A stretch of DNA of 64,000 nt, from positions 62,001 through 126,000 of the forward strand of contig ABHC01000001.1 of NCBI GenBank assembly GCA_000171835.1, in the 5' to 3' direction. Under the pieces are notes generated by a model. It was not told the origin of the DNA, did not search any database, and saw only the letters and a list, made by a program, of their open reading frames with translations. The stretch's first letter is position 1. Each line of letters starts with the position of its first letter. This document shows positions 7,643 through 64,000 of the stretch, piece after piece. The position numbers and the translations under genes were made by a program. Source of the DNA: an alpha proteobacterium BAL199. GTDB taxonomy: Bacteria > Pseudomonadota > Alphaproteobacteria > Thalassobaculales > Thalassobaculaceae.

Positions 7643-8350
7643 GTGTCGATGCAAACAGAGAAAATCAGCTACAAGCGCCACCGCTTTCCGCCTCAGATCA
7701 TTTCTCATGTTGTCTGGCTCTACGCCCGGTTCAACTTGAGCCTGCGCGAGGTCGAGGAGCTTATGCTGGAACGTGGTGTGGACGTTTCGTATGAGACGAT
7801 CCGGCGCTGGACCGTCAAGTTCGGTCCCCGGATCGCCCACGTTCTGCGGCGACGGCAGCCTCGCCCTGGTGATGTTTGGCATCTGGACGAAGTCGTCGTG
7901 AAGATCGCGGGCCGGTCATACTGGCTGTGGCGCGCCGTCGACCAACACGGTGTCGTTCTTGAGGAAATCTTACAATCGAAGCGAGACAAGCGCGCTGCAA
8001 AGCGGCTTTTGATCAAGCTGATGAAACGTTGGGGCTTCGTGCCCAAAAGGATCATTACGGACAAACTGCGCTCATATGGGGCCGCCAAGCGCGAGGTCGC
8101 GCCTGGCCTTGATCATTGGTCACACAAGGGGCTCAATAACCGCGCCGAGAACAGCCACTTGCCCTTCCGAAAACGAGAGCGGGTGATGCAAGGCTTCCGA
8201 TCACCGGGTGGATTACAACGCTTCGTGTCTATGCAATCCGCAACCCGCAATCGTTACTCTGTCCCAGCCCGCCGTCGTTCCGCCCTCACCATTCGCTACC
8301 ATCGGCTCGAAGCGTTCGAAGCTTGGAAATCCGCGGCACATGCCGCTTGA
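7643..8350 (+). CDS. IS6-family DDE transposase
   Basis: A 235-residue transposase of the IS6/IS26 family, which moves by replicative or conservative cointegrate formation. Seen: N-terminal YKRHRFPPQIISHVVWLY helix-turn-helix-like region and VSYETIRRW, then the DDE domain with D82 (VWHLDEVVVKI), D140 (IITDKLRSYG) and the acidic residue in NNRAENSHLPFRKRERVMQGFRS. Translation may begin at the GTG given or at the ATG six bases later. The gene appears intact, so the element may still be active. Its GC content looks lower than the neighbourhood, consistent with a mobile origin. Confidence 0.92.
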   Translation: MSMQTEKISYKRHRFPPQIISHVVWLYARFNLSLREVEELMLERGVDVSYETIRRWTVKFGPRIAHVLRRRQPRPGDVWHLDEVVVKIAGRSYWLWRAVDQHGVVLEEILQSKRDKRAAKRLLIKLMKRWGFVPKRIITDKLRSYGAAKREVAPGLDHWSHKGLNNRAENSHLPFRKRERVMQGFRSPGGLQRFVSMQSATRNRYSVPARRRSALTIRYHRLEAFEAWKSAAHAA

Positions 8351-50614: not shown

Positions 50615-51748
50615 ATGGATGACGCGAGCACCCGGCCGAATCTGCCGGTCGCGATGACCGATGACATCGTGGCGTCGTCGCGCGATGCGATCATCACCAT
50701 CGATCCCAAAGGACGGTTGACCTCATTCAATCCCGGAGCGGAGGCGATCTTCGGGCTGCGGGCCTCGGAGACCGTCGGACGGACCGTCGCGGAGGTCTTC
50801 CTTCCGATCGAAGAACTCGACGTCTTTACCGACTGCGTGCTGGAAGCGGTAGGGAACCCGGATCAGGAGCACTCCGCCAACATCAGCCTGAACCGCGGGA
50901 ACCGTGTCCTTCACCTCAGCGTCCGAGCCGCCCTGCTGCGCCACAAGGGCACGGGCGACCGGGTCGGCGTTCTCGTCATGATCTCCGACGAGAGCGAGCG
51001 GGTCGAATTCCTGGCGAAGAGCGCGGAGCGAGAGCGGGAACGCGCGGCGACCGGCCGGTTCATTGTCGCCATCCTGACGATCTTCAGCGTGTTCACGCTG
51101 CTCCTGGAACCAATCCAGAAGCTGGCACAGGCCCGGTTCTTCGATTTCGGCCCGGTGATGGCGCTTCTGACGCTGGTCGTGATCGCCTTCATGATCAATC
51201 GGTGGTTCTCGCCATCCTCCGCGACCATCGGCCTCAATCTTCGTCCGCAACGCCGCTATCTGATCGAGGCTGTGGTCTGGTCAATCGCAGCCTGCATCCC
51301 GATGACCCTGGCGAAATACCTGTCGCTCGGCCTCGCCCAAAATCCGGGTGATCCGCCCGCGCCGCTGTTCAGCTTCTACGTCCTGGATGACGGCACCAAG
51401 GTGGACAGCGTCGGACTTTACGCAATCGGGTTGTTGGTCTACCTGATATCGGTGCCGTTTCAACAATTTGCCGTCCGCTGCGCCATCCAGGCTCCGCTGC
51501 AGAGCTTTCTGACAGGGGTGGTCGGACCTGCCGGCTGGATCGCGAACCTGACGGCAACGCTGCTGTTCGCCGTGCTGCATGCCCACCTCAACCCGGTCGT
51601 CTCGCTTGCCGTGATCTTGCCGTCGTTGCTTTGGGGGTGGCTGTTTATGCGTTCGGACAGCATCGTCACGCCGATCGTTTCCCATGCCATCATCGGCGTG
51701 TACGCGATCTTCATCCTTGGGGTGTTCGCCGGATTGGATCAGGTCTGA
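50615..51748 (+). CDS. PAS domain fused to a CPBP (CAAX protease-like) membrane domain
   Basis: A 377-residue fusion. Residues about 15-130 form a PAS domain (IVASSRDAIITIDPKGRLTSFNPGAEAIFGLRASETVGRTVAEVF) with an ISDESER linker. From about residue 148 there are several membrane helices and a CPBP/ABI domain. Motif 2 (FAVLH, 318-322) and motif 3 (SHAII, histidine 357) are present, but motif 1, normally EExxxR, reads QQFAVR (283-288). Loss of both glutamates suggests a non-hydrolytic receptor or scaffold. It is followed after 34 bases by the radical SAM gene. Confidence 0.82.
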   Translation: MDDASTRPNLPVAMTDDIVASSRDAIITIDPKGRLTSFNPGAEAIFGLRASETVGRTVAEVFLPIEELDVFTDCVLEAVGNPDQEHSANISLNRGNRVLHLSVRAALLRHKGTGDRVGVLVMISDESERVEFLAKSAERERERAATGRFIVAILTIFSVFTLLLEPIQKLAQARFFDFGPVMALLTLVVIAFMINRWFSPSSATIGLNLRPQRRYLIEAVVWSIAACIPMTLAKYLSLGLAQNPGDPPAPLFSFYVLDDGTKVDSVGLYAIGLLVYLISVPFQQFAVRCAIQAPLQSFLTGVVGPAGWIANLTATLLFAVLHAHLNPVVSLAVILPSLLWGWLFMRSDSIVTPIVSHAIIGVYAIFILGVFAGLDQV

Positions 51749-51782
51749 ACGTGCCTCCGCTCACCGAAAACGAAGCACCCGC

Positions 51783-53299
51783 ATGACCGGAAACAGGCGG
51801 CCGAGAGTTCTTGTCGTCAACGCGTATGTCGACCCCTGGCGCTCGGCGGCACCCACGCGCCTGTTCATTCCGCGAGCAGTGGCACCCTATTACCTTGCGG
51901 GGCGCTTCTGCCCTGACCGCACCGAGATTCGGGTCCACGATGAAGTCCATCACGGTGCCCTGCTCGACCCGCGCCTTTTCGAATGGCCGGATCTCGTCGT
52001 GCTCACCGGCCTGACCTTATCATTCGATCGAGCGCGTCAGCTCTCGGCCTATTTTCGCAATGCGCGCCCCGGTATTCCGATCGCCATAGGCGGCCCCATC
52101 GCCCGCGCGCTGCCCCGGTTGTGCGAGACGGTCTTCGACTATGTGTGCCTGGGCGACGTCGAGTCCCTGGACGAACTGATCGACGCTGCGCTCGGGGAGG
52201 GCTATCGCGCCGACGACCCTGCCCCCCGATTCGATATGATCGGATGGTCGTACGGTCTCGGCTACATCGAGACGACAAGGAACTGCAATTTCAGCTGCGC
52301 ATTCTGCTCGCTGACCGGCGAGAATCGAGCCTATCAGCAGTATTCCTCCGGCGAGATTTCCCGGCAGTTCAAGGCCCTGGGACGGGTCACGATGCTCATG
52401 GTTCTGGACAATAATTTTACGGAAACAACCGCTCGGATTTCGAGCGTCGTGTCGATCTGCTCGGCGCGCATTGGCGCCGCGGCGACTTCCGGGGGTGGGG
52501 GGCTCTGGTCACGGGCGATTTCTTCAAGAACCCGGACAATCTGGCATTCGTCGCGGCAAACGGCTGCAAGGCCTTGTTCTCCGGTGTTGAATCATTCGAC
52601 CCGTTGGTGCTGAAGAGTTTCAACAAGCGCCACAGCCTGTCGTCCGACCCCCGCACCCTGGCACGGCTCTGCGCTGAGCATGGCGTGCTGTTCGACTACG
52701 GAATGATGCTGGACTTCACCCAACAGACCGTCGCCGAAATCGATGGGCAGATCGACGCGCTGCTCGCCAGCACGGACACGCCCCTGCCGGCACTGCTGTC
52801 GCTGACCATTCCGATCCTCGGCACGCCCTATTTCGATGAAGCGGCCAAGATGGGCCGCCTTATGCCGAACCTTCGGCTGTGCGATCTCGATGGCCAGAAA
52901 GTCGTCGAGTGGCCGAAAGAGCCGGTTGAGCAAGTCGTCCCCTACGTGGCCGATCTGTTGCGGTTCCGCGGCCGCAAATCGGCCCTTCTGCGCCATGCGG
53001 TGCGGCATGTCTGGTCCCGGAGATCGTCGTTCGACGTCTCGCAGTCGATGATCAGCCTGCTCGGTCCCCTGGTTCGGTATGGCGGCACTCTGAAAATCGG
53101 CAGCGTCCGCCAGATGCGGCAGACCTGGCGGGAACCCCGGCGGACCTACTGCGCCATGACCGACCCACTCAGTGTCAGCTACCGTCCGTCCCATCGCTTG
53201 CTCGACAAGTTCACCCGTGACTTCGAGCCGCTCTACGTCACGGATGGCGAGGGTCGCCTGACGCAGGAGATTCGGGCAGGGGCATCGGGAAATCGGTGA
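51783..53299 (+). pseudogene. B12-binding-type radical SAM protein, interrupted by a frameshift
   Basis: About 506 codons in two frames. The N-terminal part (RVLVVNAYVDPWRSAAPTRLFIPRAVAPYYLAGRF, DLVVLTGLTLSFDRARQLSAYFR, IAIGGPIARALPRLCE, VCLGDVE) resembles the cobalamin-binding domain of B12-radical SAM enzymes. The radical SAM motif is CNFSCAFC in ETTRNCNFSCAFCSL. After MLMVLDNNF the frame is lost at TTTT (52415-52418); one extra T would give DNNFYGNNRSDFERRVDLL and restore the C-terminal half (GDFFKNPDNLAFVAANGCKALFSGVESFDP). The end overlaps the CFA-type gene start (GTGA). The substrate is unknown, possibly lipid. Confidence 0.82.
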
Positions 53300-55722: not shown

Positions 55723-56598
55723 TCAGGCCGGTCGACGGCGCGTCAGGCGGTGCGGGTCTTTCAGGGCGTTCTCGGTGGCCCGCCATTCGCTGTGCAACGT
55801 CAGGGCGGCGGCGTGGATCAAGCCTCCGATGCGCATGCGTTCGGCGGTGGCCGCACCGGCTTTGAGGGCCGCCGCGATGTCTGCGTCGCTCAACGGTCCG
55901 ACGTCCAGCACCACCAGGCGGTCGCCCAGATCGCTGTCCGGGGCTTCGGCACTGGCCGGACCCCGCCGGATCGCCGTGTGGCCCGGCAGGTCGACCGCGT
56001 TGGCGATCAGCGTGGCGGCAACGTCGGCCGCGGCGGCGGTGGCGGCCAGCACCGTCACCGCGTCGGCGATCCCGAGCGAAAACGACCGTCCTCCGCGCCC
56101 GCTGGTGGCGGCACCACGGACCGGATCGTCGAAGCGGATCGTGGCCCTGCCCGACAAGCCGGGCGCGCCGAGGTCGGCAACCAATCCAAGCTCGAACGTC
56201 GCGTCGGGGGTGAGATGGAAGGCGATGTCGCCACCGTCATTGACCCACGCCTTGGCAAGGCCGGGGGCTGATTCGATCATCGCCGCCAGGATGTGGTCGG
56301 CGACCGCACCGGCAACCGCCGCCATAGGGGTGACGAACACATCGCTGTGCGGGCGAACGGCGGCAACCATGCGGCGGGCGACCGGCCCATCGACGGCGGC
56401 GGGCGTTCGGTCGGCTGGCCGCCGAAGAGTGGGCAGTTCAGCGACCAACCCGGCCAGCAGCCCGTCGAACGCGCGGATCGCGGCAGCATGGGCGCGCTGA
56501 ACCGTGTCTGCCGGTCCCTCGGCGCCGATCAGCAGGTCGATCGGTCCTTCCTGCAGATGCAGTCTCCCATCAGGCAGCCGAGCGGCGATCCCGCTCAC
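55723..56598 (-). CDS. UPF0280 family protein with ApbE-like motifs
   Basis: A 291-residue protein that starts at a GTG overlapping the stop of the preceding gene (GTGA). Family UPF0280 is uncharacterised, but the sequence shows ApbE-like features: AWVNDGGDIAFHL (residues 118-129; compare the VNAGGDI strand of ApbE), GAATSGRGGRS (165-171; compare the TSG loop) and DAVTVLAATAAAADVAATL (179-197; compare VTV-A-x-AD-AT). ApbE transfers FMN onto proteins. It is the last gene of an operon with a homologue of a flavin-containing ring reductase, suggesting a role in cofactor attachment. That role is inference. Confidence 0.85.
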   Translation of the reverse strand: MSGIAARLPDGRLHLQEGPIDLLIGAEGPADTVQRAHAAAIRAFDGLLAGLVAELPTLRRPADRTPAAVDGPVARRMVAAVRPHSDVFVTPMAAVAGAVADHILAAMIESAPGLAKAWVNDGGDIAFHLTPDATFELGLVADLGAPGLSGRATIRFDDPVRGAATSGRGGRSFSLGIADAVTVLAATAAAADVAATLIANAVDLPGHTAIRRGPASAEAPDSDLGDRLVVLDVGPLSDADIAAALKAGAATAERMRIGGLIHAAALTLHSEWRATENALKDPHRLTRRRPA

Positions 56599-58091
56599 GG
56601 CCGGCGCTTCGGGTCTCCCGGCGGGTCGTAGGGCCAGGGGTTGCCGGGCCGGCCGGGTTCGCGCCGCAACTCGGGATGCTGCGCCAGCACGGCGTTGAGG
56701 TCGCGGATCGACGCCATGTGGCCGCCGAGCTGTTCGTAGGCGGCGCGTGGCAGGGTGAACTCGATCGGGGCCACCAGCGCCGGGGTCGGTACATAGCCAA
56801 AGGCGTTCGCCGGCAGGCGGGTGACGTCGGCCATCAGAGTGATACCGCCGCCGGGCCAGACATAGGCGGGCGCGCCGCCACAGGTAACGCGGGTGATCAT
56901 GTCCTGCACCGAACGGGTGAGGCGTACCGGGTTTTCGGTCACGCCGGCGCGCAGGCTGCCGCCGGCCCCGCCCATGAACAGCACGGTGCACAGCGCCGGC
57001 TCGCAGTTCTCGGCGATCCGGTCGACCACCACCTGCAACGGCGCCGGCATCGGCATCGGGACCGGGCGCAGGTCCCCGTCCAGCTCAAAGTACGCTGAGT
57101 CCTCGCCGGTGGTGGAGACCATCAGCACCCGCTCGCCCGGCCAGGCGGTCCTGGAATCGATCCGGTCGATGATCGCCAGCGGGTCGGTGACGTCGGTACC
57201 GCCCCAGCCCGAGCCGGGCTCGGCCACCTGGAAATACCGGCCGGGGGTGGACTTGCGGCCGCGTACCCGGATGCCAGCGGGCCGCATGTCGAGGAACCGG
57301 CCGGCCTGGTGCTCGCTCAGCACCCCGGTGATGTGGTCGTCGACCACGATCACCTCGTCCGCATGGCCGATCCACTGCTTGGCGAAGATACCGATGGTGG
57401 CCGACCCGCAGCCGACCCGCATGCGCTCCTCACGCTCGCCATCGACCACCGGCGCCTTGCCGGCCTGAACGGTGACGGTGGAGCCGCCGTCGATGGTCAG
57501 GTCGACCGCCTCGCCGTTGCACAGCGCCAGAAGGGTGGCGCAGGTCACCGTGCCTTCGCGCTTGGACCCGCCGGTCAGGTGCCGCACCCCGCCGAGCGAC
57601 AGCATCTGCGAGCCGTATTCGGCGGTTGTGACGTGGCCGACCGGCTCGCCGTCGACCCGGATCGCCGCCTGCTCGGGGCCGAGATGGCGGTCGGTGTCGA
57701 TCTTCACCTTGGCGCCGCAGTAGCTGAAAATGCCCTCGGTCACGACGGTGACGGTGTCGACGCCCTGCCACTCGGTGGCAACGATGAAGGGGGCTGGCTT
57801 GTAGTCGGGATAGGTGGTGCCGGAACCGATGCCGGTCACGAACACCGGCGGCTCGGCCACCAGTTTGCCGTCCCAGTCGGCGGCGGCGTCCAGGAACGGC
57901 ACCAATTCACCGTCGCGTTCGATCGCGTGTTCGGTCACCACTAGCGGGTCGAGGCGGATCAACTCGCCGTCGCGGTTGGCGTAGCGGTCGCAGGCGCCGA
58001 CCTTACCGCAGCGGATCCGGCACAGCACCGGGCAAGCGTCGCAACGCACGATGTCGCCGGTATTCGGCTCGGTGATTACCGCCTCGCTCAT
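56595..58091 (-). CDS. 6-hydroxynicotinate reductase-like Fe-S flavoprotein
   Basis: A 498-residue protein resembling the ferredoxin-dependent 6-hydroxynicotinate reductase of Eubacterium barkeri, which reduces the pyridine ring to 1,4,5,6-tetrahydro-6-oxonicotinate. The N-terminus has a cysteine cluster, CDACPVLCRIRCGKVGACDRY (C17, C20, C24, C28, C34). Later segments include VTEGIFSYCGAKVKIDTDRHLGPEQAAIRV, REGTVTCATLLALC (about 178-191), GCGSATIGIFA, GSGWGGTDVTDPL and LFMGGAGGSLRAGVT. It is coupled by ATGA to the upstream hydroxylase and by GTGA to UPF0280. The true substrate may be another N-heterocycle. Confidence 0.83.
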   Translation of the reverse strand: MSEAVITEPNTGDIVRCDACPVLCRIRCGKVGACDRYANRDGELIRLDPLVVTEHAIERDGELVPFLDAAADWDGKLVAEPPVFVTGIGSGTTYPDYKPAPFIVATEWQGVDTVTVVTEGIFSYCGAKVKIDTDRHLGPEQAAIRVDGEPVGHVTTAEYGSQMLSLGGVRHLTGGSKREGTVTCATLLALCNGEAVDLTIDGGSTVTVQAGKAPVVDGEREERMRVGCGSATIGIFAKQWIGHADEVIVVDDHITGVLSEHQAGRFLDMRPAGIRVRGRKSTPGRYFQVAEPGSGWGGTDVTDPLAIIDRIDSRTAWPGERVLMVSTTGEDSAYFELDGDLRPVPMPMPAPLQVVVDRIAENCEPALCTVLFMGGAGGSLRAGVTENPVRLTRSVQDMITRVTCGGAPAYVWPGGGITLMADVTRLPANAFGYVPTPALVAPIEFTLPRAAYEQLGGHMASIRDLNAVLAQHPELRREPGRPGNPWPYDPPGDPKRRP

Positions 58092-60853
58092 TCAGCGGCC
58101 CTCGCTTGCGCGCGCAGCGCCGCCCGCACCCGGTGCGGCAGGGCCGGCACGCGGGTGATCTCCACGCCGGTGGCGTGGCGGATTGCGCCCAGGATGGCGG
58201 GTGCGGTCGGCACCAGGGCCGGCTCGCCGATGCCCTTGGCGCCGTTCGGACCGAGCGGTTCGGGATCCTCGACCAGGATGCAGGTGATCTCCGGCATGTC
58301 GCCGAAGGTCGGGATCAGATAGTCGTGCAGGTTCTCGGTCCGACCCGGCAGGTATTCCTCCATCAGCGCGAGACCCAGGCCCTGGGCAATGCCGCCATGA
58401 ATCTGGCCTTCGACCAGGGTCGGGTTGATGGCGCGCCCGACATCGTGGGCGGCAACCATCTTGAGCACCTTGGTGGTGCCGAGCTCGAGGTCGACCTCGA
58501 CCAGCGCGATCTGGGCGGCAAAGGCGTAGGTGGCATAGGGCGTGCCCTGGCCGTCGGCGTTGAGCGGCTCGGTCGGCGGGTCGAACGTGCCGGTGCCGAC
58601 CAAGGCGTCGCCCTCGCTATCCACGGGCAGACCCTCGAGATCGATTGCCCTGGTCTGTCCGTCGTGCAGGACGACCACCCGGCCATCCTCGAAGTCGAGC
58701 ACCGCGTCGTCTCCGGCGTTGGCCAACCGCAGCAGTTGGGCGCGAAGGTCGCGGCCGGCGAGTTCCGACGCCTTGCCGGACACGAAGGTCTGGCGCGAGG
58801 CCGAGGTTTTGCCTGCGTCGGCGGTGCGGTCGGTGTCGCCGCACACCTGGGCGATCAAGGACAGCGGCGCGCCGAGCGCGTCGGCGGCGATCTGCGCCAT
58901 GATGGTGTGGCTGCCCTGGCCGATGTCGAGGGCGCCGTTGTACAGCACCAGCGAGCCGTTCGGCTTCAGACCGAGCCGCATGATCGACGGGTTGCTCATC
59001 GAGGTGTTGCCGCAGCCATACCACATGCAGCCGATGCCGGCGCCGAGGCGGAGAGGGCCGCCGCACGCGTCGGCGGCGGAGCAGGTGTCCAGGTATTCGC
59101 GCCAGTGCGGCTGCAGTGCTTCCAGGCAGGCGGCAAGGCCGACCGATGCCTCGATGCGCTGGCCGGTTGCGGTGGTGTCGCCGGCCCGTAGCGCGTTGGT
59201 CAGGCGGAATTCCAGGCGGTCGATGCCGAGCCGGTCGGCCATGCGGTCCATCAGCGCCTCGCCGGCGATCGCCGCCTGCGGCACGCCGAAGCCGCGGAAC
59301 GCGCCCGCTGGCGGGCCGTCGGTGTAGACCGCGGCGCTGGTGGCCAGCACCGCCGGTACCCGGTACGGGCCGGGCGCGTGCACCGGCACCCGGCCGGCCA
59401 CGGTCGGTCCCCACGACGCATAGGCGCCGGTGTCGAAGTCGCCGTTGAACCGGTAACCGAGGATGCGGCCAGACTTGTCGGCGGCCAGGCCGGCCTGCAT
59501 CCGCGCCGGGTGACGCTTGGTGGACGACGCCAGACTCTCCGGCCGGGTCCATAGCGCGGCAACCGGTCGGCCAAGCGTCCAGGCGGCAACCGCCAGCGGT
59601 AACTGGACCGACTGGTCGAGCTTACCTCCGAACCCGCCGCCGACCGCAGATGGTATGATCCGCACCCGCTCCGGCGCGATGCCCAGGACATGGGCGACCT
59701 CGTCTCTGTCCATGTACGGGGTCTGGGTGGTGACCCGCAGCTCGATCCGCCGGCTGCCGTCGAGACCGTCGATTGGGCGAGCCCAGCCGGCTTCCGGCTC
59801 GATATAGGCATGCTCGACGAACGGGGTTTCGAAATCGTCTTCGACCACCGCGTCGGCGCCGGCGAACACCGCGTCGATGTCGCCGGTGGCGACCCGACCG
59901 CGGATCAGCACGTTGCCGGGCGAGGCGTCGTGCAGTTGGGCCGCTCCACCTGCCAGCGCGGCCTCGATGCCCACCACCGCGTCGCGCGGGTTCCAGGTAA
60001 TCGGAAATCCGACGAGGTCGATGCCCTCGAATGCGGCCCGGTTCTCGACCACGACCGCCGCTACCGCCTCGCCGCGGTAGCGCACGAAGCGTTCCGCGAA
60101 CACCGGCTGGTCCTTCAGGGTCGGGTAGATGCCGAAGCTGTTGCTGCCCGGCACGTCTTTGGCGGTCAGCACCGCGATCACGTCCGGCGTGGCGGCCATC
60201 CACTGATCGATGTTACCCAGCGTGAAGTCGGCCAGTGGGTGCGGCGAGCGCAGGACCTTCAGCCAGAGCGTGCCGTCCGGGTGCTGGTCATCGGCATACA
60301 ATTCGCTGCCATCGAGCCGGCCGGTTCCGTCGAGCCGGGCGACCCGGGCGCCGACCGCAACTCCGGATGCGGGCATTGCCGGGTCGGGCGCATTGGAGGC
60401 GACGTCCAGCACCGCCTCGACGATCTTCTGGTACCCGGTGCAGCGGCACAGCACGCCGCCAAGCGCGTCCATGGCCTGGACTCGACTCGGTCGAGCCTCG
60501 CGGGACAACAGGTCGGCGGCGGCCATCAGCATGCCAGGCGTGCAGATCCCGCACTGCGCGGCGCCGTGCCGATGGAACGCGCGCTGCAGCGCGGACAGCC
60601 GGCCGTCGGGATCGGCCAGTCCTTCGACGGTGACAATCGACGCGCCGTTAGCCTGGGCCGCCGACACCAGGCACGCGCACACCTGCGCGCCATCGAGCAG
60701 CACGGTGCAGGCGCCGCAATCCCCGGCGTCGCAGCCGACCTTGGTGCCGGTCAGGCCGAGATCGTCGCGCAGGACGCGGGCCAGCCGGCGGCCGGGATCG
60801 ACCGTTGCCGTTCGTTCGGTTCCGTTGACGGTCAGAGCGATGGTCACGGTCAT
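58088..60853 (-). CDS. Xanthine dehydrogenase family protein: fused [2Fe-2S] and molybdopterin subunits
   Basis: A 921-residue fusion. Residues 1 to about 155 form the small Fe-S subunit: the plant-type cluster GCDAGDCGACTVLLDG and the second cluster CGICTPG with CRCTGYQ. The rest is the molybdopterin subunit, with AVGGGFGGKLDQSVQLPLAVAAW, GAFRGFGVPQAAIAGE, LDIGQGSHTIMAQIAADALG, VAAHDVGRAINPTLVEGQIHGGIAQGLGLAL and the catalytic glutamate in GAKGIGEPAL. It hydroxylates an aromatic N-heterocycle or aldehyde; the coupled ring reductase makes a nicotinate-like substrate plausible. The FAD subunit gene precedes it by 12 bases. Confidence 0.93.
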   Translation of the reverse strand: MTVTIALTVNGTERTATVDPGRRLARVLRDDLGLTGTKVGCDAGDCGACTVLLDGAQVCACLVSAAQANGASIVTVEGLADPDGRLSALQRAFHRHGAAQCGICTPGMLMAAADLLSREARPSRVQAMDALGGVLCRCTGYQKIVEAVLDVASNAPDPAMPASGVAVGARVARLDGTGRLDGSELYADDQHPDGTLWLKVLRSPHPLADFTLGNIDQWMAATPDVIAVLTAKDVPGSNSFGIYPTLKDQPVFAERFVRYRGEAVAAVVVENRAAFEGIDLVGFPITWNPRDAVVGIEAALAGGAAQLHDASPGNVLIRGRVATGDIDAVFAGADAVVEDDFETPFVEHAYIEPEAGWARPIDGLDGSRRIELRVTTQTPYMDRDEVAHVLGIAPERVRIIPSAVGGGFGGKLDQSVQLPLAVAAWTLGRPVAALWTRPESLASSTKRHPARMQAGLAADKSGRILGYRFNGDFDTGAYASWGPTVAGRVPVHAPGPYRVPAVLATSAAVYTDGPPAGAFRGFGVPQAAIAGEALMDRMADRLGIDRLEFRLTNALRAGDTTATGQRIEASVGLAACLEALQPHWREYLDTCSAADACGGPLRLGAGIGCMWYGCGNTSMSNPSIMRLGLKPNGSLVLYNGALDIGQGSHTIMAQIAADALGAPLSLIAQVCGDTDRTADAGKTSASRQTFVSGKASELAGRDLRAQLLRLANAGDDAVLDFEDGRVVVLHDGQTRAIDLEGLPVDSEGDALVGTGTFDPPTEPLNADGQGTPYATYAFAAQIALVEVDLELGTTKVLKMVAAHDVGRAINPTLVEGQIHGGIAQGLGLALMEEYLPGRTENLHDYLIPTFGDMPEITCILVEDPEPLGPNGAKGIGEPALVPTAPAILGAIRHATGVEITRVPALPHRVRAALRAQARAAE

Positions 60854-60865
60854 CGCGTCCCTCCC

Positions 60866-61729
60866 TCAGGCCGCCGCGAGGTCGGCAAGGCAGCGCCGGA
60901 CCAGGACGGCTGCGGCTTCGCATCGGTACTCGCCGTCGGCGCGCACATCGTCGATTGGTGCCAGCCCTGCCAGATGCTGCGCGGTGACGGTCGCAGCGGC
61001 CTCGGCGAGCGGCCGGCCGACTAGCGCGGCTTCCAGCTCACGAAGCCGAAGGGCCGCGGCCGAACAGGCGCCGACCGCCAGCCGGGCCGAGGCGATGGTA
61101 TCGTCTGCAGCCCTGACCAAGGTGCCCGCGACCATCACGATCGAGATGACCAGATAGCGTCGGGCGCCGAGCTTCAGGAACCGGCCGGTGCCGTCCAGCG
61201 CTGCCGGTGGGATCCGGATCGCGGTCAGCAGTTCGTCCGGTCGCCGGGTGGTGCGGCGATTGCCGAGCACGAAGCCATCGAGTGGCAGCCGGCGGACCCC
61301 GTCGAGCGACGTCAACTCGACCTCGGCGTCCAGCGACAGCAGAGGCGGAACCCCATCGGCGGCGGGCGACGCGTTGCACAGATTGCCACCGACCGTACCG
61401 CGGTTCTGGATCTGCACGCCGCCAACCTCGCGCGCGGCCGCCTTCAGCCCGTCGCAGGCGGACGGCAAGTCGGCGGCGATTACAGCACTCCAGGTGGCAC
61501 AGGCGCCGATCGTGAGGCCGCCATCGGACAGGCGGCGGATGCCGCGCAGTTCCGGCAGGGCAGTGATATCGAGGATTGCTTCGTCCGGGGTGGAGGTGAC
61601 GCGGGCCGGAAAATGGTCGGTCCCGCCGGCCAGCACCGTGCATGGACCGTCGCGCAGCGCCGCCAGCGCATCGGGCAATCGGGTCGGTCGAGTGTACGCA
61701 CCCACGGCCATCGTCCCCGGCCAAGTCAT
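60866..61729 (-). CDS. Xanthine dehydrogenase family FAD-binding subunit
   Basis: FAD subunit of the molybdenum hydroxylase, about 287 residues. Seen: YTRPTRLPDALAALRDGPCTVLAGGTDHFPAR (FAD loop), DITALPELRGI, IGACATWSAVIAADLP, VGGVQIQNRGTVGGNLCNASPAAD (second FAD loop) and the CODH-type C-terminal domain. The start is uncertain: ATG at 61729 is given, ATG at 61711 is also reasonable, and a longer reading from 61771 would translate through a palindromic operator-like site. It is the first gene of a four-gene operon. Confidence 0.9.
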   Translation of the reverse strand: MTWPGTMAVGAYTRPTRLPDALAALRDGPCTVLAGGTDHFPARVTSTPDEAILDITALPELRGIRRLSDGGLTIGACATWSAVIAADLPSACDGLKAAAREVGGVQIQNRGTVGGNLCNASPAADGVPPLLSLDAEVELTSLDGVRRLPLDGFVLGNRRTTRRPDELLTAIRIPPAALDGTGRFLKLGARRYLVISIVMVAGTLVRAADDTIASARLAVGACSAAALRLRELEAALVGRPLAEAAATVTAQHLAGLAPIDDVRADGEYRCEAAAVLVRRCLADLAAA

Positions 61730-61760
61730 TCGTATGCATACGAGTGTGAACACACGCTCG
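61730..61760. promoter_or_regulatory. Operator-like palindromes between the hydroxylase operon and DUF1194 genes
   Basis: TCGTATGCATACGA (61730-61743) is a perfect 14-bp palindrome. Next to it, GTGTG-AA-CACAC (61744-61755) gives a second short dyad within CGAG...CTCG flanks. They lie directly upstream of the FAD-subunit start, where a TetR/GntR/LysR-type regulator could control the operon. No regulator gene is adjacent in the window. Confidence 0.5.
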
Positions 61761-61816
61761 TGAGGGGTCAAGCGGGCACACTGGATTTACCCGCGGGCCG
61801 GTGCAAGGCTGTCGGT

Positions 61817-62593
61817 ATGGCGGGTCGATCCAGTTTCCCCTGGCTTCTCAGGGCCGTGATACTGGCCTTGTGCAACGGGGGTATGGCGACTTCCGTAGCG
61901 GCCGATGTTCCGGTCGACCTTGAACTGATTCTGGCGATCGATTCCTCCGACAGCGTCGACAGCGGCGAGTACGCGTTGCAGGTCGGCGGATTGGCCCAGG
62001 CGTTTCGCGACCCCGAGGTGCATCGGGCGATCCGCGGTGGAATGCTCGGGTCGATCGTCGTCGCCGTGATCGAATGGTCGGGCCGGTACCAGCAGATCGT
62101 GCAGATTCCGTGGACGCGGCTGGATGGCCCGGCGGCGGCCTTGGCGTTCGCCGACGAGATCGCCGATCTGCAGCGCGCCTTTGACGAGGGGGTGACTTCG
62201 ATCTCCGGCGCGCTGGATTTTGCATCGGGACAGTTCGACGGCAACGGCTTCGTTGCGGCGCGCCGGGTGATCGACATCTCGTCCGACGGTGTCCAGAATC
62301 AGGGACGGCGCATCGATCTGGCGCGGGAGGCCACTCTGGCGCGTGACGTCACGATCAACGCCCTGGTGATCCTGAACGAGATGCCGGATCTGGAGGAGTA
62401 CTTCGGCGAGCGGGTGATCGGCGGATTCGGCGCGTTCGTCATGGCGGCGAACGACTACCCGGACTATCCCGAGGCGATCCGGCGCAAGCTCTTGCGGGAG
62501 ATCGGTCAGACGCCGGTCAGTGTGCTGGATGACGGTCGGAACCAGCAGGCGTGGCTGCCGACCCTGACTAGCGATCGTGCGGCGCTGCCATGA
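61817..62593 (+). CDS. DUF1194 (VWA-like) secreted protein, copy 1
   Basis: A 258-residue protein with a signal peptide (FPWLLRAVILALCNGGMATSVAAD) and a von Willebrand A-like domain. The metal-site motif DxSxS is LAIDSSDSVDSGEYALQ, the conserved threonine is in GVTSISGALDFA, and DISSDGVQNQG supplies the later aspartate. The C-terminal IGGFGAFVMAANDYPDYPEAIRRKLLREI is repeated in the two genes that follow. Function is unknown. Its stop overlaps the start of copy 2 (ATGA). Confidence 0.88.
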   Translation: MAGRSSFPWLLRAVILALCNGGMATSVAADVPVDLELILAIDSSDSVDSGEYALQVGGLAQAFRDPEVHRAIRGGMLGSIVVAVIEWSGRYQQIVQIPWTRLDGPAAALAFADEIADLQRAFDEGVTSISGALDFASGQFDGNGFVAARRVIDISSDGVQNQGRRIDLAREATLARDVTINALVILNEMPDLEEYFGERVIGGFGAFVMAANDYPDYPEAIRRKLLREIGQTPVSVLDDGRNQQAWLPTLTSDRAALP

Positions 62594-63351
62594 CCGCTCG
62601 CGGGGGGGCGGGGGCGATTGTCGTCGTCGCTGTGATGTTCTGTACAGCGGCTGGGCCCGCCGTGGCGACAAACGTCGAGGTCGATCTGGCCCTGGTCCTC
62701 GCGCTGGACTCGTCCGCCAGCGTTGACGCCGAGGAGTTCGCGCTGCAGCGCGGCGGACTGGCTGCCGCGTTCCGCGACCGCGAGGTTGTCGAGGCGATCG
62801 CCGCCGGGCCGCTTCGGCGCATCGCCGTGACGGTCATGGAATGGGCCGGCGCCGTCCAGCAGGTGGTATCGGTGGAGTGGGTGGTGGTCGCGGATTCGAC
62901 CGGTGCATTGGAACTGGCCGATCGAATCGACGCCCTGGACCGGGCGATACCCACCGGGGCCACGTCGATAGCCGGCGCGCTGATTTTCGGAAACGCTTTG
63001 CTCCGTACCGCGCCATTTGATGCCACCCGCCGGGTCATCGACCTATCCGGCGACGGCCGCAACAACCAGGGCCAGAACGTCGAGGACGTACGCCGGTTGG
63101 TGGTGGCGCATGGGGTGACGATCAACGGGCTGGCGATCCTGAACGAGCATCCCACGCTGAACCACTATTTCCAGGATCGCGTCATCGGCGGCCCCGGCGC
63201 GTTCGTCGAGATTGCCGAGGACTACAGCGCCTATGTCGGCGCGATCCGCCGCAAGCTGATCCGCGAAATCCGCAGCCTGACGGTCAGCGATGCCACACCG
63301 CCGCCCGAAAGCCGGGTTCAACTGGTTGCCGCTTTGCCACCAGGGCTCTGA
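62590..63351 (+). CDS. DUF1194 (VWA-like) secreted protein, copy 2
   Basis: A 253-residue paralogue of the upstream gene. Signal peptide (GGAGAIVVVAVMFCTAAGPAVA), metal-site motif LALDSSASVDAEEFALQRGGLAAAFRD, threonine in ATSIAGALIFGNAL, DLSGDGRNNQG, and C-terminal VIGGPGAFVEIAEDYSAYVGAIRRKLIREI. The line-by-line similarity with copy 1 is obvious by eye, but the signal peptides and tails differ, so the duplication is not recent. Translationally coupled on the left; three bases separate it from copy 3. Confidence 0.88.
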   Translation: MTARGGAGAIVVVAVMFCTAAGPAVATNVEVDLALVLALDSSASVDAEEFALQRGGLAAAFRDREVVEAIAAGPLRRIAVTVMEWAGAVQQVVSVEWVVVADSTGALELADRIDALDRAIPTGATSIAGALIFGNALLRTAPFDATRRVIDLSGDGRNNQGQNVEDVRRLVVAHGVTINGLAILNEHPTLNHYFQDRVIGGPGAFVEIAEDYSAYVGAIRRKLIREIRSLTVSDATPPPESRVQLVAALPPGL

Positions 63352-63354
63352 AAC

Positions 63355-64000
63355 ATGCGCTTGCGCCTGATTGCGTCGATCGTTGCCGTCGTGGCCGGAT
63401 GGGGCCTCGATGCCCGCTCCGAGCCGGTCGACCTCGAGCTTGTGCTGGCCGTCGACTCCTCGGCGAGCGTCGACTACAGCGAGTTCAGTCTGCAGTTGGA
63501 GGGGTTGGCACTGGCGTTCCGGGACCCCGAATTGGCGGCGACCATCAGCGCCGGCATCCACGGCGTCATCGCGGTCACGCTGATGGAGTGGTCGAGTATC
63601 GGTCGCCAGGAGGTGGCCCTGCCGTGGACGCGGATCGCCACCACGGCGGACGCCAGCGCGTTCGCCGATGCCATCGACCGATCGCCGCGCCAGTTGCAGA
63701 CCGGTGCCACGTCGATATCGTCGGCCATTGAGTTCGCCAATGGACTGTTCGCCGGCAACGGCTTCGAGGGGGTACGACGTGTCATCGATCTGTCCGGTGA
63801 CGGATACAACAACCAGGGCGAGCCGCTGGACATAACCCGAGCGGACGTATTGGCAACCGGCACCACCATCAACGCCCTGGCGATCGAGAACCAAGTGCTC
63901 GGGCTCACCGAGTACTTCGAACAACAGCTGATCGGCGGCGTTGCCGCATTCGCGATGCGCGCCACCGACTATCGGGACTATCTCGGCCAGATCCGTCGCA
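63355..64000 (+). CDS. DUF1194 (VWA-like) secreted protein, copy 3 (cut by window end)
   Basis: Starts MRLRLIASIVAVVAGWGLDARSEP and stays open to the window edge, about 215 codons. Metal-site motif LAVDSSASVDYSEFSLQLEGLALAFRD, threonine in ATSISSAIEFANGLFAGNGF, DLSGDGYNNQG, then LIGGVAAFAMRATDYRDYLGQIRR. Only the last 30 or so residues should be missing. It is the third tandem paralogue of the series. Confidence 0.88.
   Translation, partial: MRLRLIASIVAVVAGWGLDARSEPVDLELVLAVDSSASVDYSEFSLQLEGLALAFRDPELAATISAGIHGVIAVTLMEWSSIGRQEVALPWTRIATTADASAFADAIDRSPRQLQTGATSISSAIEFANGLFAGNGFEGVRRVIDLSGDGYNNQGEPLDITRADVLATGTTINALAIENQVLGLTEYFEQQLIGGVAAFAMRATDYRDYLGQIRR

Follow-up and report, generated by a model that had tools for sequence, protein, structure and literature searches.

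A nicotinate-type operon of the alphaproteobacterium BAL199 appears to couple a 6-hydroxynicotinate reductase homologue to a UPF0280 protein with a predicted ApbE fold

A stretch of 64,000 nucleotides from the alphaproteobacterium BAL199 (the window; positions 62001-126000 on a contig of 590,463 bases, in a genome of 6.10 Mb with completeness 100) contains an operon of four minus-strand genes, which encode the two subunits of a molybdenum hydroxylase, a homologue of 6-hydroxynicotinate reductase (Hnr) and a UPF0280 protein. Among sampled Alphaproteobacteria, UPF0280 looks like an obligate partner of Hnr, and its predicted fold is that of the ApbE flavin transferases. The operon is favored, with moderate confidence, as the first two steps of a reductive nicotinate pathway of the Eubacterium/Azorhizobium type together with a dedicated maturation factor. 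The uncharacterised, widely distributed UPF0280 family would thereby gain a named client, Hnr.

The layout given in a preliminary description of this DNA was confirmed by sequence and domain matches. The FAD (flavin adenine dinucleotide) subunit and the fused hydroxylase are separated by 12 bases, and the remaining genes overlap by four bases each:

60866..61729, minus strand: FAD subunit of a molybdenum hydroxylase (xanthine dehydrogenase family), matching PF00941 (FAD_binding_5; expectation value, E, 3.5e-39) and PF03450 (CO_deh_flav_C; E 5.3e-15)
58088..60853, minus strand: fused 2Fe-2S/molybdopterin subunit, predicted nicotinate 6-hydroxylase, with Fer2, Fer2_2, Ald_Xan_dh_C, MoCoBD_1 and MoCoBD_2 domains
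58088..58091, minus strand: ATGA overlap of the hydroxylase stop and the Hnr start, read from the sequence
56595..58091, minus strand: Hnr, the 6-hydroxynicotinate reductase homologue, assigned by similarity to annotated relatives
56595..56598, minus strand: GTGA overlap of the Hnr stop and the UPF0280 start, read from the sequence
55723..56598, minus strand: UPF0280 protein with a predicted ApbE fold, proposed as an Hnr-specific flavin-attachment factor, assigned by NF003322 and a structure model

The association of Hnr with UPF0280 was analyzed in 385 sampled Alphaproteobacteria genomes, which were searched for both proteins at E 1e-10. Hnr was found in 68 genomes and UPF0280 in the same 68, with neither in the other 317; the window's genome contributed one copy of each. 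In 67 of the 68 genomes the two genes share a contig and a strand, and their aligned parts are no more than 162 bases apart; in the last they are on two contigs. Several genomes gave UPF0280 as two pieces, and for the pairing the mutually closest pieces of the two genes were used. Two of the 68 pairs are imperfect, with Hnr split over two frames in one genome (G028) and interrupted by a stop in another (G358). The genomes are related, so that a chance figure based on independent draws would overstate the association; the case rests on zero exceptions in the sample. For contrast, 59 of the 68 genomes with Hnr have AA_synth (PF06684), counting a fragment in the window's genome, as do 22 of the 317 others. 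AA_synth was rejected as an essential partner, since at E 1e-10 it is missing from nine of the 68 and only the fragment is present in the genome of the window.

The genomic setting of Hnr was compared in 90 related loci, 80 of them from genome contigs (the best 80 of at least 593 relatives, and therefore biased to close relatives) and 10 from the 26 plasmid matches. Rather than being conserved apart from each other, the operon genes are co-located beyond chance across these loci: Hnr is accompanied by UPF0280 in 86 of them, by the fused hydroxylase in 75 and by the FAD subunit in 72. Two of the four loci counted without UPF0280 end within 310 bases of Hnr, and all four genomes carry UPF0280 when searched whole. 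No fusion of the Hnr and UPF0280 genes was found among these loci (L002-L091), 11 of which have both in one frame. Further genes near Hnr include AA_synth (64 loci), Liv-type transporter genes (56) and MarR (44), and a ferredoxin-NADP reductase gene is present in 5 of the 80 genome-contig loci and 6 of the 10 plasmid loci. Among plasmid records, UPF0280 was found in 27 (at E 1e-5) and Hnr in 26. The additional record, pBPS33-1 of Hydrogenophaga sp. BPS33, has UPF0280 and a MarR gene between IS1071 transposase genes, one of which UPF0280 directly adjoins; UPF0280-like sequence was detected by tblastn in four places on this plasmid record, on which Hnr was not found, and its UPF0280 is read as a cut-off piece of a cluster. 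Four more records, at E 2-10 in the UPF0280 plasmid search at a lax E-value, were taken as chance.

The UPF0280 protein of the window matches NF003322 with 367.2 bits (cut-off 290). Its alignment (A3) consists of the window and 72 further rows; seven of the 80 genome-contig loci have no UPF0280 match over 85% of the query, and L013 was dropped. The AlphaFold2 model calculated from the 73 rows has a predicted local distance difference test score (pLDDT) of 92.9. A Foldseek search with this model at E 0.001 returned 23 matches, comprising 2O34 (DVU1097 of Desulfovibrio vulgaris) and ApbE/Ftp/FmnB flavin transferases. Comparison by VIA-align gave Z 19.8 for 2O34, Z 14.2-17.0 for the flavin transferases and 8.1 for the next structures, urate oxidases; the superposition on Treponema Ftp (4IG1; Z 17.0) has a root mean square deviation of 3.1 over 218 residues. 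UPF0280 is thus predicted to adopt the fold of the ApbE flavin transferases.

The ApbE family (PF02424) is matched at E up to 0.1 by 25 of the 73 UPF0280 members, at best with E 8.4e-6, and an hhalign comparison with 19 ApbE rows (probability 90.3, E 1.5e-6) pairs GG, ATSG (residues 164-167 in the window's protein) and ADxxAT (191-196). The catalytic triad of a Vibrio ApbE enzyme is Asp285-Ser241-His257, according to the available part of PMC12052999. Since Ser255, His271 and Asp299 of the E. coli enzyme match the spacing of this triad, UPF0280 keeps its Ser and Asp and not its His. No Cys column is conserved in the 73 UPF0280 rows; the best is Cys in 35 and Val in the window's protein. No signal peptide was apparent by eye (no program was run). 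No ordinary ApbE (PF02424) turned up in the genome of the window, and the same holds for 39 of the 68 genomes with Hnr, which makes this enzyme an unlikely general flavin donor for Hnr. NF003322 also matches Methanocaldococcus jannaschii and Methanosarcina acetivorans below the cut-off, among 14 control genomes. No publication on UPF0280 by name was found in the open-licence literature of PubMed Central (PMC).

Hnr has no match above a cut-off in Pfam or NCBIfam. Its relatives in 26 plasmid records are 61-72% identical, and in 17 of them the gene under the match is annotated as 6-hydroxynicotinate reductase. The reductase of Eubacterium barkeri reportedly carries a covalently bound flavin, one 2Fe-2S cluster and two 4Fe-4S clusters. 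In the Hnr alignment (A2; the window and 77 rows, with L037, L082 and L083 dropped because they have an unread base or a stop close to where the aligned stretch ends), Cys residues 17, 20, 24, 34, 125, 184, 228 and 363 are invariant in all 78 rows, and two further columns have Cys in 64 and 58 rows. The eight invariant residues suffice for two clusters; Cys184 is missing from L008, a plasmid row outside A2. Three columns contain only Ser and Thr, each in at least 17 rows (118, 259 and 369), and position 259 (34 Ser, 44 Thr) is preceded by D252-H-I-T-G-V-L. The AlphaFold2 model of Hnr, folded as a whole chain and not by single domains, has a pLDDT of 82.2 and a predicted template modelling score (pTM) of 0.70. 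No solved relative was found by sequence or by Foldseek at E 0.001, and the best VIA-align result is Z 3.8 to a GcvT structure over residues 125-212 (window 57710-57450). Residues 130-161 separately show a weak sequence likeness to the C-terminal barrel of the glycine cleavage T-protein (E 0.0056). A new fold is not claimed for Hnr, as the confidence of the model is moderate.

The obligate pairing, the fold with part of an active site and the covalent flavin said to be present in E. barkeri Hnr together make UPF0280 look like an enzyme that could attach the covalent flavin of Hnr. In its full form the proposal is tentative, possible rather than probable: UPF0280 would represent another class of flavin transferase, one that arose from the ApbE fold but lacks its His base and has Hnr as its one client, perhaps modified at Ser/Thr 259, and its COG2122 cousins in methanogens and Desulfovibrio would likewise attach or handle flavin for the DUF39 homocysteine enzyme. 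Several observations weigh against flavin attachment. The ApbE His general base (E. coli 271, invariant in the 19 ApbE rows) and the IDPxTG loop align to a gap in UPF0280, so that the transfer chemistry would have to differ, and a Pfam scan of the UPF0280 in the window gave nothing at E up to 1. The exact ApbE target motif, D-x-x-[ST]-G-A-[ST], was not seen in the Hnr alignment, in which the nearest motif, D252-H-I-T-G-V-L-[ST]259, is one residue too long. The invariant Cys residues of Hnr are also fewer than the clusters reported for the E. barkeri enzyme would need. The COG2122 papers (PMC5764234 and PMC12068725, in their available parts) suggest a role in sulfur handling and question whether the similarity extends to the flavin region of ApbE. 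A search of the open-licence PMC literature for hydroxynicotinate or nicotinate with covalent flavin found nothing relevant.

The coupling of the two genes would fit any obligate partner, and UPF0280 might instead be a subunit of Hnr or a non-flavin chaperone, for example one that binds FAD or a nucleotide or one that aids Fe-S loading, with the nicotinate pathway itself correctly identified. The loss of the ApbE His and loop and the want of an exact flavinylation motif in Hnr are consistent with such a role, whereas the retention of ATSG and ADxxAT, the closeness of the predicted fold to Ftp and the need of some source for the flavin reportedly bound by E. barkeri Hnr argue against it, and it is considered rather unlikely. 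Much less likely still is a sulfur or persulfide carrier of the kind proposed for MA1715, which would supply either Hnr, for its Fe-S clusters, or the hydroxylase, for its Mo=S ligand. Its appeal lies in the COG2122 relatives MA1715 and DvMF_0044, which act in the DUF39 sulfide-to-homocysteine pathway (available parts of PMC5764234 and PMC12068725), and in the sub-cut-off NF003322 matches in the two methanogens; however, UPF0280 lacks a conserved Cys, and it is associated with Hnr, while 15 of the 90 loci gave no countable match to the fused hydroxylase. Flavin attachment by UPF0280 remains the preferred interpretation. The coupling without exception in the 385 genomes and the predicted fold would then point to a maturation step that a covalent flavoprotein would need, and the part of COG2122 in the homocysteine synthesis of archaea and Desulfovibrio could be read in another way.

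The operon represents a pared-down arrangement of a known pathway's core and is of an already described type; it very probably starts nicotinate breakdown by hydroxylation and then reduction of the ring. The molybdenum hydroxylase (FAD and fused Fe-S/Mo subunits) would convert nicotinate to 6-hydroxynicotinate, and Hnr, as an Fe-S flavoenzyme, would reduce this to 1,4,5,6-tetrahydro-6-oxonicotinate, probably with electrons from reduced ferredoxin. UPF0280 would mature Hnr, most likely by attaching a covalent flavin derived from FAD. The lactam ring would then probably be opened by ATP (adenosine triphosphate)-dependent HyuA/HyuB encoded about 226 kb away, and not by an enamidase.

The preliminary description had suggested hydroxylation and reductive dearomatisation of an N-heterocycle and had left the substrate open. 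The former gains evidence from the gene families and the neighborhoods, and the choice of substrate is now narrower, with nicotinate the probable candidate. The operon has the core of a nicotinate degradation cluster described for Azorhizobium caulinodans and Bradyrhizobiaceae (available part of PMC3511419), and the amidohydrolase of a sister cluster in Sulfitobacter pontiacus matches the E. barkeri-type enamidase 2VUN at E 1e-106. Of the 15 loci in which the fused hydroxylase was not counted, three have a NicA/NicB-like enzyme, annotated as nicotinate dehydrogenase in two; one of the three, L002, was scanned whole, and its enzyme contains cytochrome c domains. For the fused hydroxylase to be counted, a match at 45% identity had to span more than 40% of the query; among the 15, L032 and L074 contain part of a copy where the contig ends, and in L077 only 70 bases precede the Hnr match. 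A weakness of the assignment is that the hydroxylase substrate is read from neighboring genes only.

Action on another N-heterocycle, a different pyridine or a pyrimidine, by an Hnr of changed specificity is judged unlikely. In its favor, the transporter, regulator, AA_synth and ring-opening genes found in many sister clusters are missing from the window's operon, and the opened loci of its clade (the window, L012 and L013) contain no enamidase and no Hyu. Nonetheless, the window's Hnr is 61-74% identical to those from enamidase or Hyu loci, and the interleaving of these two kinds of loci on the Hnr tree (see below) argues for one shared product. Separately, a Rieske ring-hydroxylating oxygenase was observed in the clusters of L005, L006 and L010 (Sulfitobacter, Pseudosulfitobacter and Sagittula plasmids), one of the isolates being from a diatom culture; as a guess, the oxygenase of some marine clusters might allow N-methylated nicotinate (trigonelline) to enter the pathway.

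Neighborhood comparison for shared hydrolase or transporter genes, which the preliminary description had suggested, found in addition to the Liv-type transporter two kinds of candidate ring-opening genes. An enamidase is near Hnr in 18 of the 90 loci, HyuA or HyuB in 38, both in none and neither in the remaining 34, among them short contigs. Parsimony on the 91-row Hnr tree gives eight changes between the enamidase and Hyu labels, and a sister pair with differing labels is formed by L055 (Hyu) and L071 (enamidase); many forks are weak, and the trees are of a quick type with support from the Shimodaira-Hasegawa-like approximate likelihood ratio test (SH-aLRT) only. Because the two never occur in one locus and switch eight times on the tree, enamidase and HyuA/HyuB probably open the same reduced ring. 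They could instead mark two substrates of closely related Hnrs, as the labels are more clustered than when shuffled (17 changes against a shuffled mean of 29.2 for Hyu, 13 against 16.7 for enamidase); yet the eight changes, the L055/L071 pair among them, and the absence of any locus with both genes make this somewhat unlikely. The loci are interpreted as a single pathway whose first and third enzymes can be exchanged. A predicted second, ATP-driven opening of the reduced nicotinate ring would explain the 38 Hnr loci with hydantoinase-type genes and no enamidase.

The absence of ring-opening genes noted in the preliminary description holds within the window. The genome as a whole yielded no enamidase, its best match scoring 24.3 bits across a short stretch of the query, but the same contig encodes a HyuA of the pathway clade. 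The genome has nine HyuA matches, eight of which were placed in a tree, the ninth being a short match. The HyuA at C69:351796-353844, 59% identical to that of the Pseudosulfitobacter cluster, falls inside a clade of 36 cluster HyuAs (SH-aLRT 100), with the seven other paralogues outside. It is adjoined by a HyuB with 65-69% identity (L128 6558-8338, corresponding to C69 about 349558-351338). Caution is required for this assignment: the pair is unlinked to the operon, and HyuB is in two overlapping frames, from a real break or an assembly error; the other HyuA rows of this genome are long branches, about which the tree program warns; and AA_synth, which most clusters retain, is represented in this genome by no more than a fragment, located on contig C26 (L129 around 7794-8036), covering profile positions 2-84 of 175 and lying beside an open reading frame (ORF) that is transposase-like by eye. 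A search of the open-licence PMC literature for nicotinate with hydantoinase and oxoprolinase found nothing relevant.

Directly upstream of the operon, on the opposite strand, tandem DUF1194 (von Willebrand-like) genes occupy 61613-63965; the first was identified by domain scan and two more by tblastn. The closest named relative among the matches listed is Thalassobaculum fulvum, with an Hnr of 89% identity, an identical gene order and a similar upstream DUF1194 tandem (L012 3949-6377). A scan for regulatory signals was uninformative, with one promoter-like site (0.7 in shuffles) and no terminator-like sites (1.6 in shuffles). Elsewhere in the window, a B12-binding/radical S-adenosylmethionine-like protein, its family named by eye, is split over two overlapping plus-strand ORFs at 51684-53299 (51684-52613 and 52574-53299), as if frameshifted.

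Compared with known systems, the operon resembles two nicotinate pathways. The E. barkeri fermentation cluster likewise performs the hydroxylation and then the reduction to 1,4,5,6-tetrahydro-6-oxonicotinate predicted here; it reportedly differs from the window in a four-subunit selenium hydroxylase and in the presence of the fermentation genes downstream. The E. barkeri Hnr is 42% identical to one from Bradyrhizobiaceae (available part of PMC3511419), and the reduced intermediate is opened in E. barkeri by an enamidase (available part of PMC9304392). The clusters of A. caulinodans ORS571 and Bradyrhizobiaceae, as described in the available part of PMC3511419, also keep the hydroxylation and 6-hydroxynicotinate reductase steps together, but they comprise the first three steps and a putative ABC transporter, whereas the window has two steps and UPF0280, with no enamidase found in the genome. 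What this analysis adds to the known cluster type is the UPF0280 coupling with its predicted ApbE-like fold, the alternation of enamidase and Hyu, and the distant HyuA/HyuB. Relative to the ApbE/Ftp FAD:protein FMN (flavin mononucleotide) transferases (PF02424), UPF0280 shares the predicted fold and the ATSG and ADxxAT motifs, but differs in lacking the His base and the IDPxTG loop and in having as its partner a single Fe-S reductase without the standard target motif. MA1715 and DvMF_0044 of COG2122 are taken as members of the same wider family, given that 2O34 is the nearest solved structure and that NF003322 has sub-cut-off methanogen matches; they belong to another subfamily with another partner, their genes serving homocysteine synthesis (available parts of PMC5764234 and PMC12068725).

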